Shown here one piece after another: positions 2,760-9,086 of a DNA stretch of 64,000 bases. Source of the DNA: Pseudomonas alkylphenolica (lineage in GTDB: Bacteria; Pseudomonadota; Gammaproteobacteria; Pseudomonadales; Pseudomonadaceae); the NCBI RefSeq assembly GCF_004025535.1, contig NZ_QJRG01000033.1, positions 558,001 through 622,000 of the forward strand, given 5' to 3'. The notes under the pieces were generated by a model. That model ran no database searches, was not told the origin of the DNA, and saw only the letters and a program-made list of their open reading frames with translations. Made by a program: the position numbers and the translations under genes. How positions within the stretch are numbered: position 1 is the stretch's first letter; each line of letters opens with the position of its first letter.

Positions 2760-2835
2760 GGCAGCTGTGCGCGGGTTCGCAGACCGGGCATAGGAACCGG
2801 CGCACCCAAAGGTGCCCCACGCACAGCCACCATTG
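2760..2835. repeat. 76-bp structured repeat, unit 1
   Basis: Aligns without gaps to 2877-2952. The ends are inverted (GCTGTGCG near the start, CGCACAGC near the end). Inside is a hairpin with stem CACC/GGTG and loop CAAA. The core GGCATAGGAACCGGCGCAC is identical or nearly so in both units. Confidence 0.85.
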
Positions 2836-2876
2836 CTCGACGATATAGCGAGGAAGTTAGCATCTGGAATTAAGGA

Positions 2877-2952
2877 GGCAGCTGTCCGTGGGTTAGCAGA
2901 CCAGGCATAGGAACCGGCGCACTCTAAAGTGCCCCACGCACAGACACCATTG
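2877..2952. repeat. 76-bp structured repeat, unit 2
   Basis: Second copy, 117 bp downstream of unit 1 (start to start). The internal hairpin stem is CACT/AGTG where unit 1 has CACC/GGTG, so a C-G pair is replaced by a T-A pair. This compensatory change suggests the folded form matters. Confidence 0.85.
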
Positions 2953-3269
2953 GCCAGCAACACAGATCGAGTCTGATAAGAGTTGTGCAGGGTAAGTGCG
3001 TACGGCGGCAAGTTCAATGGCGCAGTGGCATCGATGGTATTTATTCAGAAACTTCTGACACAAACTAGCACAAAGCACACAAACCGCCCTTGAAGAACAG
3101 AGCTATTTCCACCTAAAAATTCGAGACCATCTATATAGAAAGCACAACAAAAATTAAACTCGCAAAACACCAACGCGGTACCGACGAAATCGAGACAACC
3201 TGCTTGCCCCTGACAAGTCATCTCGGCTTTCGTCATCTCCCTACCACGCAGCCACCCGTTGGCTGGCAG

Positions 3270-3656
3270 CTATCCTCTGGAGCACGCTTGCGCGGCGTCC
3301 AGCAGCCGGCCTTTGTCGTACCAGGCGTCGCGCTGGTAGGCAGTGTACAGGCTATGGCCGTTTGCGCTGGATACCTCGACCAGGCCGTCGGTAGTGCCAG
3401 GGTTGGTCGAGCCGATGAACAGGTCGGTTTTACCGCCGTTTTCCACCGTGTACGTTGAGGTGTAGCTCTGCACTTCGTCCTTGACGCAATCAATGTAGGC
3501 TTTATCACTCTTTGAAGTAATACCGTCAACGTTATCGCCGCTGGTTCTTATATCAGGATTGTGCGCACAACCCGCCAGCAGCAACAAGGTGCACATGAAA
3601 TAAAATTTACTACGCTTTATAGACATCGGATGTTTGCCAAGTATCGTGCTTTTCAT
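3270..3656 (-). CDS. Small lipoprotein of unknown function
   Basis: 128 residues. The N-terminus is a lipoprotein signal peptide: basic residues (KRSK), hydrophobic run FMCTLLLLAGC and lipobox LAGC, with the lipidated Cys about 30 residues in. GGAG lies about 8 nt before ATG 3656. A shorter start at ATG 3626 would give a more compact signal peptide but lacks a ribosome-binding site. The mature part has two further Cys (YIDCVKDE and QACSRG) that could form a disulfide. I recognise no domain. It is isolated between the repeat region and a divergent methyltransferase gene. Confidence 0.75.
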   Translation of the reverse strand: MKSTILGKHPMSIKRSKFYFMCTLLLLAGCAHNPDIRTSGDNVDGITSKSDKAYIDCVKDEVQSYTSTYTVENGGKTDLFIGSTNPGTTDGLVEVSSANGHSLYTAYQRDAWYDKGRLLDAAQACSRG

Positions 3657-3852
3657 GGTAATAACTCCAAGCTCGAACTGTGGGGCGCATGAAAGTATAG
3701 CCAAAAGCTAACTAAGGCGATCGAATTTAATCTGCATAGACCCACCCGCTGCCAAGCCGGCAATTGGGGAATATCTAAGGAAATCACTCCTGCTGCCGAT
3801 AACCTGAAAACTGAGCGCTACGGCCTCTCCCCTTTCGGACAGCAGGTATCCC

Positions 3853-4632
3853 ATGAAAGTCTGCATCACCCATCGAGAGATCTTCTATCACCTGATCCAC
3901 GCCGTATTCCAGGCGTGTGACAAGCAACCTGTCATCGCTGAACTCGGTGTGCTGCGCGGTGAGAACGCGCTCAAGCTGTACGACGCCCTGGCGCCACAAC
4001 AGATGGTGTTGATCGATAGCTGGAGCCCGGTCGCGAACGAGCAGTACAGCCCGTTCGACTCGCTGCCGCCGTGGGTCGAGCCTGTGGACTCGTACGCTTA
4101 CTACTACGGTGGCTCGATGCACGATCCGGCCACCTGGGACCGCCTCTATCAGGAATGCCTGAGCAAGTTCCTCGACAAAGACAATGTCACCACGATCCGT
4201 GCCGATACCATCAGCGCCATTGAACAGATCAAACCGAAGACAGGTATCGACAAGTTCGACCTGGTGTACATCGATGCCAATCACCAGTACGAGTACATCC
4301 TGCGCGACTTGATGTATTACCAGGACCTGGTGGCCGACGATGGCTTCATGCTCCTCAACGACTGCTGCCACAGCCTGATGGGCACCAAGCAGAACCTTGG
4401 CGTTCTCGAAGCCCTGAGCAGCTTCCTCAAGCGCTCCGACTTCATTCCGCTGGCCATGACCAACACCGACTGGTCCGACGTGATCCTGGTGCGCAAGAAC
4501 TCGCCGATGGTGCAACTGGTGGACATGGCGCTGAGCAATTCCGATATTCCGTTCGTGGAAATTCCGTACCAGCTGATTTCTGCCGCCAAGGTGCGGTCCG
4601 GTCAGCAACGCATGAACCTCAGTTTTGCCTGA
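3853..4632 (+). CDS. Class I SAM-dependent methyltransferase (Methyltransf_24 type)
   Basis: 259 residues with a Rossmann methyltransferase pattern: motif I IAELGVLRGENA (residues 28-39), an acidic strand end VLIDSW (about 52-57) that would bind the SAM ribose, and FDLVYIDANHQYE (135-147). The sequence resembles macrocin-O-methyltransferase-like and glycan-cluster methyltransferases, but there is no sugar or secondary-metabolite gene nearby, so the substrate is unknown. It has its own terminator-like hairpin downstream and appears to be a single-gene unit. Confidence 0.8.
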   Translation: MKVCITHREIFYHLIHAVFQACDKQPVIAELGVLRGENALKLYDALAPQQMVLIDSWSPVANEQYSPFDSLPPWVEPVDSYAYYYGGSMHDPATWDRLYQECLSKFLDKDNVTTIRADTISAIEQIKPKTGIDKFDLVYIDANHQYEYILRDLMYYQDLVADDGFMLLNDCCHSLMGTKQNLGVLEALSSFLKRSDFIPLAMTNTDWSDVILVRKNSPMVQLVDMALSNSDIPFVEIPYQLISAAKVRSGQQRMNLSFA

Positions 4633-4649
4633 GCCGTTCCTGTCCTGAC

Positions 4650-4692
4650 GCCTGGCCCCGGGTGCTGTTCAGCGCCTGCGGCCAGGCCGGTT
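4650..4692 (+). terminator. Terminator-like hairpin after the methyltransferase gene
   Basis: GCCTGGCC (4650-4657) pairs perfectly with GGCCAGGC (4680-4687) across a 22-nt loop, followed by CGGTTT. The short T-run makes it a modest terminator. Confidence 0.45.
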
Positions 4693-4815
4693 TGCTCCTG
4701 TACCCTTGAGTCACGCCGGTAAAACCCGGACGTACTCTTCTCCCGCCTCCCCCCGTTCGCCCCACTATCCTTGCAAAGCCGCAGGACGCGGCCCCGTCTA
4801 GATCATGGAGCGTTC

Positions 4816-6309
4816 ATGTCACTCGCCCTTGTCCACAGCCGCGCTCAGGTGGGTGTGTCCGCACCTGCAGTCAGCGTTGAAGCCCATCTGGCCAACGGCC
4901 TGCCTGCATTGACACTGGTAGGCCTGCCTGAAGCCACGGTCAAGGAAAGCAAGGACCGGGTGCGTAGCGCGATCCTCAATTCAGGCCTGGAATTTCCCGC
5001 GCGGCGCATTACCCTCAACCTCGCCCCGGCCGACTTGCCCAAAGACGGCGGACGCTTTGACCTGGCGATTGCCTTGGGCATTCTGGCGGCCAATGCACAG
5101 TTCCCCCTTCAGTGGCTGGACGACGTTGAATGCCTGGGGGAATTGGCGCTGTCCGGGGCGATCCGGCCGGTGCAAGGTGTACTGCCGGCCGCCCTGGCAG
5201 CACGGGACGCTGGCCGGGCGCTGGTGGTGCCACGGGAAAACGCTGAAGAAGCGTGCCTGGCCACCGGGTTGGTGGTGTTCGCCGTCGGCCACCTGCTGGA
5301 GTTGATCGGCCACTTCAACGGCCAGGCGCCGATCACGCCCTATGCCGCCAATGGCCTGTTGCTGCAAATCCGGCCTTACCCCGATCTGAATGAGGTGCAA
5401 GGTCAGGTAGCGGCCAAACGCGCCCTGCTGGTGGCAGCGGCGGGGGCTCACAACCTGCTGTTCAGTGGACCGCCCGGTACCGGCAAGACCCTGCTCGCCA
5501 GCCGCCTTCCCGGCCTGTTGCCACCGCTGGATGAACGCGAAGCACTTGAGGTGGCGGCGATTCAGTCGGTGGCCAGCCACGTGCCGCTGAGCAGTTGGCC
5601 GCAACGACCGTTCAGGCACCCGCACCACTCGGCGTCAGGGGCGGCCCTGGTGGGGGGTGGCAGCCGCCCGCAACCCGGCGAGATCACCCTCGCCCATCAC
5701 GGCGTGCTGTTTCTTGATGAATTGCCGGAATTTGAGCGAAGGGTGCTGGAAGTACTGCGCGAGCCGCTGGAGTCCGGGGAAATTGTCATCGCTCGGGCCA
5801 AGGACAAAATCCGCTTCCCGGCGCGCTTTCAACTGGTCGCGGCCATGAATCCCTGCCCCTGTGGATATCTTGGCGACCCCACAGGCCGCTGTCGCTGTGG
5901 GAGCGATCAGATCCAGCGTTACCGCAACAAGCTCTCCGGGCCGCTGCTCGACCGAATCGACTTGCATTTGACCGTTGCCCGCGAAGCCACGGCCTTGGCG
6001 CCTGTGGGTAACAATGGCCAAAGCAGCGCCACGGTCGCCGCGCAGGTAGCCGACGCACGGGCTGTTCAACAACAACGCCAAGGCTGCGCCAACGCCTTTC
6101 TCGACCTGCCAGGCCTGCGCCAGCATTGCGAGTTATCCACAGCCGACCAGCATTGGCTGGAAAGTGCCTGCGAACGCCTCACCCTGTCGTTGCGTGCGGC
6201 ACACCGACTGCTAAAGGTTGCCCGCACGCTGGCAGACCTCGAACAGGCTTCGCACATTCGCCGCGAGCACCTGGCGGAGGCACTGCAGTATCGACCGACA
6301 ACCCACTGA
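4816..6309 (+). CDS. comM: YifB/ComM family Mg-chelatase-like AAA+ ATPase
   Basis: 497 residues, the usual length. Residues 1-190 form the ChlI-like N-terminal domain (MSLALVHSRAQVG start, LVGLPEATVKESKDRVRSAI). The AAA+ core has Walker A GPPGTGKT (218-225) and Walker B LFLDELPEF (299-307), followed by the Cys-rich segment NPCPCGYLGDPTGRCRCG typical of this family and a C-terminal Mg-chelatase domain. ComM is a hexameric helicase that promotes branch migration when transformed DNA is integrated. ATG 4816 matches the conserved family start; an upstream in-frame codon at 4771 would add unrelated residues. Confidence 0.95.
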   Translation: MSLALVHSRAQVGVSAPAVSVEAHLANGLPALTLVGLPEATVKESKDRVRSAILNSGLEFPARRITLNLAPADLPKDGGRFDLAIALGILAANAQFPLQWLDDVECLGELALSGAIRPVQGVLPAALAARDAGRALVVPRENAEEACLATGLVVFAVGHLLELIGHFNGQAPITPYAANGLLLQIRPYPDLNEVQGQVAAKRALLVAAAGAHNLLFSGPPGTGKTLLASRLPGLLPPLDEREALEVAAIQSVASHVPLSSWPQRPFRHPHHSASGAALVGGGSRPQPGEITLAHHGVLFLDELPEFERRVLEVLREPLESGEIVIARAKDKIRFPARFQLVAAMNPCPCGYLGDPTGRCRCGSDQIQRYRNKLSGPLLDRIDLHLTVAREATALAPVGNNGQSSATVAAQVADARAVQQQRQGCANAFLDLPGLRQHCELSTADQHWLESACERLTLSLRAAHRLLKVARTLADLEQASHIRREHLAEALQYRPTTH

Positions 6310-6321
6310 GACCTGCCAGAC

Positions 6322-6362
6322 AATTATTTCAACGCTGTAATTATTTCAACATTGAAATAATT
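6322..6362. promoter_or_regulatory. AT-rich operator-like array: one half-site plus a perfect palindrome
   Basis: AATTATTTCAA occurs at 6322-6332 and again at 6339-6349 (17-bp period). The second copy is followed after 2 bp by its exact inverse, TTGAAATAATT, at 6352-6362. The array lies between comM and the membrane-bound regulator gene, upstream of that gene's promoter. Autoregulatory binding is inferred. A role in ending comM transcription is possible, but the stem is AT-only. Confidence 0.6.
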
Positions 6363-6416
6363 AAACGCCTATAGCTTATTAATTCATCACTGTGAATACA
6401 AGCGCGCCCTGTCGAC

Positions 6417-6444
6417 TTGCGTCGTTAATTATGATCCCTATAAT
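6417..6444 (+). promoter_or_regulatory. Sigma-70-like promoter for the ToxR-like gene
   Basis: TTGCGT, 16-bp spacer, then a perfect TATAAT at 6439-6444. Transcription would start near 6451, leaving a leader of about 20-27 nt. Confidence 0.6.
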
Positions 6445-6477
6445 GGCCCGCACTTTTCACAACGCGCGATGTGTTTC

Positions 6478-7266
6478 ATGAGCTACTATTTTCGATTAAA
6501 AAATAGCGCCCTTGTGGAGTTTGATCCTGATCGCTACACGCTATTAATCAACACATTACAAAACCCGCCAGAGGAAATAACCCTGGCCCGCGCAGATGCG
6601 CGGATTCTCGAGCTGCTACTGCTTGAACCCGGGGCCATTTGCTCGCGCGAGGCCATCATGGCGTTCGCCTGGGATGATCGCGTCGTCTCGGCAGGCAGCC
6701 TCAACCAGTCCATCTTCATGCTCAGGAACATCCTCGGCGACAGCAAGGATCACGACCTGCTGATCACCGTTCCGCGACGCGGCTACCGCTTCAACAGCGA
6801 TCAGCTGGTGTCTCCCGCCAGCAACATAGAGCAACCTGCCGGGCAATCGATCGTCGAACCTCCCTCCATTACCCGCGTTCACCTCGCACCGGCAATTGAG
6901 AAACAACGCCTGGGTATCGCGATCAGGCTTGGCTATCTGGCAGTGTCGGTATTTGCACTGTTTACCCTGTGGCAACTGTACACCGGGTACGAACTGCCGC
7001 ATGACCTGCAAGTTGCAGAGATCAAACAAGGCGCATTATCAATTACCGCTGTCGGCAAAAGCAAACAAGAAGTAGATGCACTCAAAGCCGATGTTTTAAG
7101 TTCAGGTATTGTCACAGATCACTTGCGCGGCGAAGTGTTTATCAGCCGTACCGGTTCACGCACCAATCTTTCCTGCGTCCAGAAAACCGGAGATGCCTAC
7201 AACCTGGAGTTTTCCTTTCGCGAAGAGCGGCTTATCAGCATGTTTGAAAAGTGTTTAGGGAGTTGA
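6478..7266 (+). CDS. ToxR/CadC-like winged-helix transmembrane transcription regulator
   Basis: 262 residues. Residues about 10-106 form an OmpR/ToxR winged helix: ARILELLLLEPGAICSREAI, the recognition-helix region SLNQSIFMLRNILGD and the wing TVPRRGYRF. There is no receiver domain. One membrane helix (about 148-168, LGYLAVSVFALFTLWQLY) separates the DNA-binding domain from a periplasmic domain of about 94 residues with two Cys (C233, C259), the number and placement seen in ToxR-type redox or bile sensors. ATG 6469 is an alternative start three codons upstream; neither has a clear ribosome-binding site. Its stop overlaps the next gene. Targets are unknown. Confidence 0.8.
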   Translation: MSYYFRLKNSALVEFDPDRYTLLINTLQNPPEEITLARADARILELLLLEPGAICSREAIMAFAWDDRVVSAGSLNQSIFMLRNILGDSKDHDLLITVPRRGYRFNSDQLVSPASNIEQPAGQSIVEPPSITRVHLAPAIEKQRLGIAIRLGYLAVSVFALFTLWQLYTGYELPHDLQVAEIKQGALSITAVGKSKQEVDALKADVLSSGIVTDHLRGEVFISRTGSRTNLSCVQKTGDAYNLEFSFREERLISMFEKCLGS

Positions 7267-7745
7267 TGATGAACAATCATCGCGCGGCATGGCGACATGC
7301 GCTGATTATCACGGTGATCTTCTCGGCCTGCCTGGCTGCGTTATTCATGACCCGCTCCGTGCCCTACGAAAACAGCCAGCCTTATCGCTCCGAAGGGCAT
7401 CACTTCATGGGTGGCGATACGCTGGACTTCAAGGAACGGCTGACGATCAGTGAACCCAGCGCGGTCATCAGCATGCTTGAACGCCTGGGCGACAAAGAAC
7501 GCCATACCGCCGTGGGCGCCTCACTGGTAGAAGCCTCGCGCTGGCGAATAAAGATCAAGGTCGAGGATATCCAGGCCAGCAGCGAGGAACAGCTGTTCGA
7601 CGTCAGTCGCCATTCGGAGCTGCTGTTTTCCCGCCAGTATTTCCGACTGGGTTCCATTTTGAACCTGGCGGTCATCCCCACCCACGGTGACGCGCTGTGC
7701 TACTACATCCTTGAGCTGGACCGCCTGCGCTGCATGAACGACTGA
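7266..7745 (+). CDS. Small membrane-anchored periplasmic protein, possible ToxS-like partner
   Basis: 159 residues. The start codon overlaps the stop of the regulator gene (TGATG), and AGGGAG lies just upstream, so the two are translationally coupled; ATG 7269 is equally possible. A short basic N-terminus is followed by one membrane helix (residues about 12-28, ALIITVIFSACLAALFM) and a periplasmic domain with Cys at 145 and 156 near the end. Size, topology and gene order match ToxS, TcpH and other accessory proteins that stabilise ToxR-type regulators, but I see no sequence match to them, so the assignment rests on context. Confidence 0.7.
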   Translation: MMNNHRAAWRHALIITVIFSACLAALFMTRSVPYENSQPYRSEGHHFMGGDTLDFKERLTISEPSAVISMLERLGDKERHTAVGASLVEASRWRIKIKVEDIQASSEEQLFDVSRHSELLFSRQYFRLGSILNLAVIPTHGDALCYYILELDRLRCMND

Positions 7746-7859
7746 TGATCTGCAGCACCCGCGGGCCACAAATGACAATTTTTGATTCCTGTTTTCTTCA
7801 CCAACGGCCCAGATTGGGGAGAGGCCAGTCACCTCGATGTGACGTCAACAGGAATCAAC

Positions 7860-8543
7860 ATGCCGCTCAAACAACTCTCTGTCTTTTTGCTCTCGCTGAC
7901 TTTGTTTGGCTGCTCGATGGCCCCCAGCATCGACACCGAACTAACCACCACAGAACAAGCCAGCAGCCCATTGCAGGTCATCGAACACGATGACAAAACA
8001 GTCGCCTGGAAACGCTCCACGGCGCCGTTCTCTGCAGAACATGAAAAGGTTGTGTTCATCAACTTGCCGAAAACCTTCGCACTCGAGGGCGACGATCCTC
8101 GATTTGCCAAGTTTGCCGGTGATGCAGACAAACTGCGTCAACACTTCCGTCGTCAGCTGGAACAACAACTGACCGGCGCCGGTTACCGCCTGGTAGACAA
8201 ACCTGCGCCAAAGGCACTCTCGCTCAATGTGTCGATTGCCAATATCGAACGCGCACCGCGTGATCCCAATGTCACCGAATACATCCCTATCGGCATGCTG
8301 GTTGGCCTCTCCCTGCATGCCACCGGGGTGCGCGATGAAACCCTGTATCTGTTCTTCCAGAGTGAAGTCAGCGACAGCGTGACAGGCGAGATGCTTGGCC
8401 GGGCCCTGGACCGCATCAGCGGCAGGAACATCGACCAGTCCGCGGCCCCGGTCGTGGAAGACATCTATCCCGCGCTCGACAGCGCTGCGCAACAGATCCG
8501 GGAACGTCTGGACCGCGAGTTCCAGCCGAAGAAACCGGCCTGA
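7860..8543 (+). CDS. DUF3313-type outer-membrane lipoprotein
   Basis: 227 residues. The lipoprotein signal peptide is MPLKQLSVFLLSLTLFGC with the lipidated Cys at 18. The body resembles DUF3313 lipoproteins: YRLVDKPAPKALSLNVSIANIE, then a small-residue segment IGMLVGLSLHATG and the C-terminal pattern VEDIYPALDSAAQQIRERLD. AGGAA precedes ATG 7860. Family function is unknown; members sit in the outer membrane. It lies 114 bp after the ToxS-like gene in the same direction and just before an outer-membrane barrel gene, so all four could be one envelope-related unit. Confidence 0.75.
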   Translation: MPLKQLSVFLLSLTLFGCSMAPSIDTELTTTEQASSPLQVIEHDDKTVAWKRSTAPFSAEHEKVVFINLPKTFALEGDDPRFAKFAGDADKLRQHFRRQLEQQLTGAGYRLVDKPAPKALSLNVSIANIERAPRDPNVTEYIPIGMLVGLSLHATGVRDETLYLFFQSEVSDSVTGEMLGRALDRISGRNIDQSAAPVVEDIYPALDSAAQQIRERLDREFQPKKPA

Positions 8544-8585: not shown

Positions 8586-9086
8586 ATGAAATTCGCAAAA
8601 CCGCTTGTAGCTGCCCTGTTTATGTTCAGCACTTTCAACGCCCTGGCCGATGACCGTGGCCTTTACGTCGGCGGCGGTCTTACCCGGGTTGAAATCGATG
8701 AGCACCAGATCAGCGACGACGACAATGCCTATAAAGCCTTCGTCGGCTACCGCCTGAACCCTTACCTGGCGTTTGAAGGCGCCTGGGTCGACCTGGGCCA
8801 GTTCGATGGCGACCACGGTAACTTCGAGGGCCACTCGGTTCAGGCCGCCGCTCACCTCGGCATGCCGATCGGGCAACGTATACGCCTGTTCGGCAGCCTG
8901 GGCGTACATGCCTGGGATGCAGACCACGATATCGCTGGCGACAGTAATGACCTGGACATGACCTACGGTCTGGGTGTCGAGGTGGACGTGCTGCGCAACC
9001 TTGGCGTGCGCCTGGAGCAGGAAGTGCTGAAGGTCGGCGACATCGATCTGGACCAGACCAGCGCCAGCGTTTACTTCATGTTCTGA
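8586..9086 (+). CDS. Small outer-membrane beta-barrel protein (OmpA-like/opacity family)
   Basis: 166 residues with a Sec signal peptide ending NALA (cleavage after about residue 22). The mature 144 residues show alternating amphipathic strands rich in Gly and aromatics (GLYVGGGLTRVEI, KAFVGYRLNPYLAFEGAWVDLG, RIRLFGSLGVHAWD) and end in the outer-membrane signature SVYFMF with a terminal Phe. This is the size of an eight-stranded barrel. There is no peptidoglycan-binding domain. It is followed by a terminator hairpin and is the last gene of the cluster that starts with the ToxR-like regulator. Confidence 0.85.
   Translation: MKFAKPLVAALFMFSTFNALADDRGLYVGGGLTRVEIDEHQISDDDNAYKAFVGYRLNPYLAFEGAWVDLGQFDGDHGNFEGHSVQAAAHLGMPIGQRIRLFGSLGVHAWDADHDIAGDSNDLDMTYGLGVEVDVLRNLGVRLEQEVLKVGDIDLDQTSASVYFMF

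Follow-up and report, generated by a model that had tools for sequence, protein, structure and literature searches.

What kind of sensor do two adjoining genes of Pseudomonas alkylphenolica encode, and which genes does it control? The pair, here called R and S, lies in a stretch of 64,000 nucleotides (GCF_004025535.1, contig NZ_QJRG01000033.1, positions 558,001 to 622,000), referred to below as the window, whose own numbering is used for its features. A preliminary description, made from the DNA letters alone, had read R and S as an envelope sensor laid out like ToxR and ToxS, an interpretation that proved largely right and is partly supported by the analyses reported here. The main clue to R/S function was absent from that description: genes for a lipoprotein and an outer-membrane barrel are linked to the pair. 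The published co-component superfamily was likewise left unnamed there. We consider it probable that R and S form a co-component pair that senses an envelope signal and controls the lipoprotein and barrel genes through a AAATnnCAATnnnTGA site.

R is a membrane-anchored winged-helix regulator

R consists of a winged helix (about residues 1-106), a membrane helix (about 146-170, the only hydrophobic stretch in the protein) and a periplasmic domain of ~90 residues (about 171-262). A Pfam search matched Trans_reg_C (PF00486) to residues 32-105 with an E value of 5.9e-12. The closest PDB sequence to the DNA-binding domain is Vibrio cholerae ToxR (phmmer E 1.1e-7), and the modeled winged helix is also closest to ToxR in structure (VIA-align Z 14.5, root-mean-square deviation 2.0 over 104 residues); among the VIA-align matches listed for the R model, all were winged helices. 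The elements of the modeled periplasmic domain (β176-182, β188-190, α196-207, β218-225, β228-234, β240-246, α249-260) follow the order β-β-α-β-β-β-α, which is that of the b2-a-b3-a fold of VtrA and ToxR (excerpts of PMC9214523), at a predicted local distance difference test score (pLDDT) of about 44-68 per block. Among the Foldseek matches of the R model, VtrA from the VtrA/VtrC complex (5kew_A) came 42nd, after winged helices, with probability 0.94.

In a single comparison, R and Escherichia coli YqeI, itself a co-component regulator, were 24% identical over 221 positions (E 2e-10); the aligned segment extends beyond the winged helix as far as the first part of the periplasmic domain. A profile built from that domain of R alone gave an hhalign probability of 0.5% with YqeI and only unrelated matches among PDB sequences, at E 0.43 or worse.

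Three cysteines are present in R. Two of them, C233 and C259, are periplasmic (the other is C55) and are the only invariant periplasmic residues across 17 diverse R sequences that are 22-75% identical to R; this set and the corresponding set of S sequences were hand-picked for diversity from sequences already gathered. In a fuller set, at least two cysteines fall within the last 40 residues in 30/30 R proteins.

S is a single-pass periplasmic protein with an invariant cysteine pair

The two genes meet at TGATGATG, where they overlap by one base if S begins at its first ATG (7266); an alternative start at 7269 would leave no overlap with R. S contains one N-terminal hydrophobic stretch (about residues 4-29), followed by a periplasmic domain of ~130 residues. 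Besides C22, which is inside the membrane helix, its cysteines are C145 and C156, and these two are the only invariant residues across 17 diverse S proteins of 16-83% identity. All 30 distinct S sequences carry the motif C-x-[YF]-x8-C. Because the periplasmic cysteines of both proteins are invariant, disulfides in R and S are plausible as judged from sequence.

A link between S and known partner proteins was sought by several routes. The FidL_like family (PF15941) had no match in S, and a genome search with PF15941 found nothing anywhere, controls included. No link of S to FidL or YqeJ emerged from PF15941, from hhalign against YqeJ or from S profiles against PDB sequences. With regard to ToxS, no relevant PDB chain was matched, a result still compatible with a shared fold. 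The Foldseek matches of the S model included vertebrate lipocalins (E 0.48-1.0, probability no higher than 0.28), which were not counted; chains of VtrC and ToxS were missing from the fold matches listed for S, and no weight is given to this. On re-examination the coordinates given in the preliminary description, the TGATG overlap and the cysteine pairs C233/C259 and C145/C156 were all correct, and its statement that S lacks sequence likeness to ToxS held in that Pfam, PDB and profile searches detected no link to known partners.

R and S are constantly paired

The distribution of S was surveyed in 398 Pseudomonas genomes, among them that of the window (6.17 Mb). S was found in 27 of them: nine at 70% identity or more, the window's genome included, and 18 at 20-37%. 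An S profile recovered the same 27 genomes as the single sequence, together with extra cassettes in two of them, G137 and G351. Six named Pseudomonas loci are related to the R/S locus, the nearest being that of P. alkylphenolica PSB00016, whose S is 97% identical. In a sample of 369 genomes from the class, the S profile matched the window's genome only; this sample may contain few carriers of such systems, since FidL_like matched nowhere in a similarly drawn one. There was no match to the S profile in a plasmid collection.

R accompanied S wherever it was looked for. BLAST found an R homologue in all 34 gathered S loci (L009-L042), some of which are the same place fetched twice; the match for L042 lay in a neighboring cassette, and that locus's own R was visible in a wider stretch. 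Conversely, when 38 relatives were searched with a profile of R's periplasmic domain, matches appeared at five places in four genomes. Three were known pairs, and at the remaining two (in G008 and G015) R was followed by an overlapping gene ending in C-x-Y-x8-C that the S search had missed, so that an S-like gene overlapped R at 5/5 loci checked and no R without an S-like gene was found among these five. These results support the conclusion that R and S are constantly paired. The co-occurrence survey suggested in the preliminary description came out in its favor, every S found having R and S without R not being seen.

S might instead serve R only as a chaperone or as protection against proteases, sensing nothing, with cysteines that are structural. 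Such a role would be compatible with control of the barrel genes by R; taken alone, it leaves the fast divergence of S unaccounted for, and we find it rather doubtful.

The pair is linked to genes for an outer-membrane lipoprotein and barrel

Downstream of R and S in the window lie genes for a DUF3313 lipoprotein and a small OmpA-like outer-membrane barrel (Table 1). At E 1e-20 or better the barrel was present in 26/398 genomes, namely all 27 with S except G055, and in 0/371 others (Fisher p 6e-40, a value that ignores kinship). In all 25 carriers fetched besides the window's genome, the barrel was in the same stretch as R/S. A DUF3313-like tblastn match lay near R/S in 24 of these 25 (not in L074), or 25/26 with the window. 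The barrel-positive carriers form two branches, here called close and distant; in the distant branch the DUF3313-like matches had 23-35% identity over 84-214 residues, and the one protein checked was a clear DUF3313 member.

In the window and 8/25 fetched carriers the gene order is R, S, lipoprotein, barrel, followed by an mscS-like gene. The yifB gene is upstream in the window and five of those eight; the stretches of L051 and L053 lack it, and that of L052 does not reach far enough upstream to tell. The 17 distant loci have the order lipoprotein (16/17), R, S, barrel, with other genes intervening in many. An mscS-like match was found in eight relatives of a 21-genome sample. The two closest of these, G007 and G009, which were the only ones inspected, have yifB near the mscS-like gene and none of the four genes between. 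The claim in the preliminary description that the pair is not a standard part of the Pseudomonas core at this position is borne out by these two empty sites and by the presence of S in 27/398 genomes.

Linkage of this kind could arise if R/S regulates remote genes and the barrel association stems from common ancestry within a few clades and neutral co-inheritance. That the barrel-positive carriers form two branches, and that the co-occurrence statistic takes no account of kinship, would fit such a history. It is opposed by the outer flanks of the block, which represent at least three chromosomal contexts, by the altered gene order, with the lipoprotein gene preceding R in the distant branch and following S in the close one, by the absence of the block at a site that is otherwise kept, and by the single occurrence in the genome of the strict form of the site described below. 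We therefore regard regulation of remote genes alone as quite unlikely. Contexts, reordering and empty sites are a better argument for linkage than the Fisher p value.

A conserved operator-like site precedes the lipoprotein or barrel gene

The gap between S and the lipoprotein gene contains the sequence AAATGACAATTTTTGATTCCTGTT, which is almost unchanged in 9/9 close-branch loci. A joint pattern for both branches, AAATnnCAATnnnTGAnTnnTnTT (15 fixed letters), occurs before the lipoprotein gene with up to 2 mismatches in 9/9 close loci, and within 330 bp before the barrel match with up to 3 mismatches in 14/17 distant loci. In L065 and L074 the site is about 250 bp upstream of the barrel, and elsewhere 95-135 bp. 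None of 300 letter-permuted patterns matched as well in either branch. The pattern derived from the close branch only averaged 7.9/24 mismatches in the distant upstream regions, as compared to 10.8 for 500 shuffles, none of which was as good; upstream of R in the distant branch it averaged 10.6 mismatches, like the shuffles. Shuffled patterns keep letters, not dinucleotides. A stricter form of the site (16 fixed letters) with up to 2 mismatches had one match in the window's genome, the site at 7770-7793, and a reversed control had none.

The barrel and lipoprotein could alternatively serve as input and not just as output, reporting the state of the outer membrane to S and then R in a four-gene relay from outer membrane to DNA. 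All four genes are present or absent as a set, and between branches the barrel retains more identity (56-59%) than S (29-37%), as would suit a fixed structural partner. A conserved site before the lipoprotein or barrel gene is more what would be expected of a target, the barrel is missing from G055 and the extra cassettes, and contact between the parts would have to be assumed. An input role appears unlikely to us, and control of these genes by R/S remains the preferred reading.

The TTGATTCCTGTT part of the site (7782-7793) is complementary to AACAGGAATCAA (7847-7858) just before the lipoprotein start and could pair in RNA with the ribosome-binding site; the arm AACAGGAATCAA is less conserved.

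Upstream of R, the palindrome TATTTCAACATTGAAATA may be an operator of R or of another regulator. Its core TTTCAAnnTTGAAA is exact in 9/10 close-branch sequences, the window included, and has one mismatch in L012; the 18-bp palindrome form has one site in the window's genome. A direct repeat, AATTATTTCAAC (6322-6333 and 6339-6350), runs into the palindrome, the whole occupying 6322-6359. In a scan around R and S with the sigma-70 consensus no full promoter passed, and only the TATAAT before R was conserved.

Table 1. Positions of the R/S genes, the linked outer-membrane genes and candidate regulatory sequences in the window
Feature	Position	Strand	Details
R, ToxR/VtrA-like membrane-anchored winged-helix regulator (likely)	6478..7266	+	262 aa; PF00486, model element order, invariant Cys
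S, single-pass periplasmic partner with C145-x-Y-x8-C156	7266..7745	+	159 aa; no Pfam match
DUF3313 lipoprotein	7860..8543	+	227 aa; PF11769 E 1.6e-25
Small OmpA-like outer-membrane barrel	8586..9086	+	166 aa; PF13505/PF01389
Conserved operator-like site AAATGACAATTTTTGATTCCTGTT	7770..7793	+	between S and lipoprotein gene, 90 bp before lipoprotein start
Palindrome TATTTCAACATTGAAATA	6342..6359	.	upstream of R; core TTTCAAnnTTGAAA
TATAAT (-10-like) region	6438..6446	+	upstream of R; in 10/10 close-branch sequences

Further R/S cassettes in other Pseudomonas genomes

G137 and G351 each contain two tandem R/S cassettes in addition to the barrel-linked pair. Those of G137 (L044, G137:C52:27000-36000; 2825-5861 and 1103-2590) adjoin the gene for an LPMO_10/GbpA-like secreted protein, and one of their S-like proteins starts with an apparent signal peptide, by reading. 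Those of G351 (L147, G351:C29:455000-468000; 5146-8243) adjoin genes resembling a contractile injection apparatus, with tail-sheath- and tube-like neighbors and an AAA protein, labels that were assigned by reading alone. In G055, whose S is the least similar of the genus search (20% identity), R/S is flanked on one side by a gene for a CSS-motif EAL phosphodiesterase and on the other by the beginning of a very large gene (L045, G055:C77; 2289-3863 and 6940-9423), which we take to resemble a repeat adhesin.

Further divergent R/S-like cassettes are present in G008 (L150, 3959-5358) and G015 (L151, 4421-5296); one adjoins flagellar motor-type genes and the other oxidoreductase-type genes, by reading only. 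In a barrel-linked locus, L046 (2522-5806), an AraC-type regulator and an EAL protein, whose CSS-motif match is below the cut-off, lie between S and the barrel, as does a short open frame that looks like a barrel copy cut short. These AraC and EAL neighbors suggest a link to cyclic di-GMP. The sensor type seems to have been reused beside different surface equipment.

Relation to known co-component systems

R and S likely belong to the kind of co-component sensor represented by VtrA/VtrC and ToxR/ToxS. Membership is likely rather than proven because the VtrA match is weak and the fold of S was not placed. In R, an OmpR-type winged helix at the N-terminus is followed by a single membrane helix and a small periplasmic domain with a conserved cysteine pair; the gene for S, a single-pass periplasmic protein, lies downstream and overlaps that for R. 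The VtrA/VtrC superfamily has the same gene and domain arrangement, and shares with R/S a cysteine near the C-terminus of the regulator and fast divergence. According to Kinch et al., 2022 (PMC9214523), co-component regulators except VtrA have a conserved periplasmic cysteine pair, with one cysteine near the C-terminus.

The kind itself is already known, and its Pseudomonas branch was glimpsed in the same article: the excerpts describe VtrC-like proteins of Pseudomonas that cluster near FidL, with no candidate in P. aeruginosa PAO1, and a VtrC-like gene in P. fluorescens C1 that overlaps a VtrA-like gene (PMC9214523). R/S is a probable member of this described kind.

R/S also differs from each of these systems. 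The partner in VtrA/VtrC is a lipocalin-like eight-stranded barrel; the poorly predicted S model shows a six-strand meander only. The FidL-type disulfide joins N- and C-terminal strands, in contrast to the S cysteines, which are 11 residues apart at the C-terminus, and the sections consulted mention no linked barrel and lipoprotein genes for the superfamily of the kind found beside R/S (PMC9214523). ToxR of V. cholerae, the closest solved DNA-binding domain, likewise has two periplasmic cysteines. Its C236-C293 bond links helix 1 and the C-terminal tail (excerpts of PMC10624426), whereas in the weak R model C233 lies in a strand and C259 in the final helix. S showed no sequence similarity to PDB chains, and bile is not implicated for R/S; the bile-like signal offered in the preliminary description found no support, as nothing in the R or S sequence points to bile. 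YqeI/YqeJ of E. coli K-12 has the same overlapping gene layout, and R and YqeI can be aligned, but YqeJ lacks a cysteine at the position of S C145, by reading, and S and YqeJ were not linked by hhalign.

A model for R/S function

Taken together, these results are consistent with the following model. R and S would form a periplasmic heterodimer, each protein locked by an intramolecular disulfide. The R-S pair would be altered or stabilized by a signal from the envelope, perhaps the thiol state or a hydrophobic compound, lipid-like or other. R, still in the inner membrane, would then bind the AAATnnCAATnnnTGA site and control the lipoprotein and barrel genes, the direction of control being itself part of the proposal. 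The outer membrane would thereby be remodeled, much as ToxR controls the outer-membrane protein OmpU (excerpts of PMC10624426).

Several observations weigh against this model or the family assignment on which it draws. Both structure models are weak, with mean pLDDT 56.4 for R and 46.9 for S, the latter an AlphaFold model from seven close sequences that consists of the membrane helix and the meander. The VtrA match to the R model reaches just E 0.15. S had no Pfam match, no fold match above noise in Foldseek or VIA-align (best Z 4.5), no relevant match to PDB chains by sequence or profile (the single sequence matched a ribosomal chain only, at E 1.4), and hhalign probabilities of 0.1 and 0.3% with YqeJ. 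Structure prediction of the single proteins, proposed in the preliminary description as a check on the ToxR-ToxS-like layout, accordingly gave a divided answer: R, with its winged helix nearest ToxR, its periplasmic element order and its weak likeness to VtrA, fits that layout with a single-pass S downstream, and the fold of S adds nothing to it.

The proposed target and its site are open to similar objections. L069, L071 and L072 have no good AAATnnCAATnnnTGAnTnnTnTT site before the barrel. At up to 3 mismatches AAATnnCAATnnnTGAnTnnTnTT has 90 matches on both strands of 26 stretches, some in other gaps of the distant loci, a total that includes the sites before the lipoprotein or barrel gene. 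The site pattern was noticed before being tested, and the loci are related. The DUF3313 link is less specific because the window's genome has five DUF3313 genes. G055 has R/S but no barrel, and the extra cassettes beside other genes in G137, G351, G008 and G015 make it possible that the barrel is not the sole output.

A broader proposal can be made tentatively: R, S, the lipoprotein and the barrel may constitute one self-contained, transferable cassette for sensing and remodeling the outer membrane, the barrel perhaps also supplying the signal, while other Pseudomonas cassettes would couple the same sensor type to other surface equipment (adhesin, LPMO, injection apparatus).

No description of the R/S-lipoprotein-barrel block or its conserved site was found by word-matching searches of the literature, and the linked outer-membrane block with its site appears to be a new element, undescribed in the literature searched. 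Most co-component sensors described so far come from enteric pathogens, in which both what they bind and what they regulate relate to virulence. If the model is correct, a Pseudomonas version outside the core genome, with its own co-inherited pair of outer-membrane genes, would provide a tractable system for learning what such sensors perceive outside the gut, and would suggest that sensors of this type govern the outer membrane in general and not in Vibrio alone.
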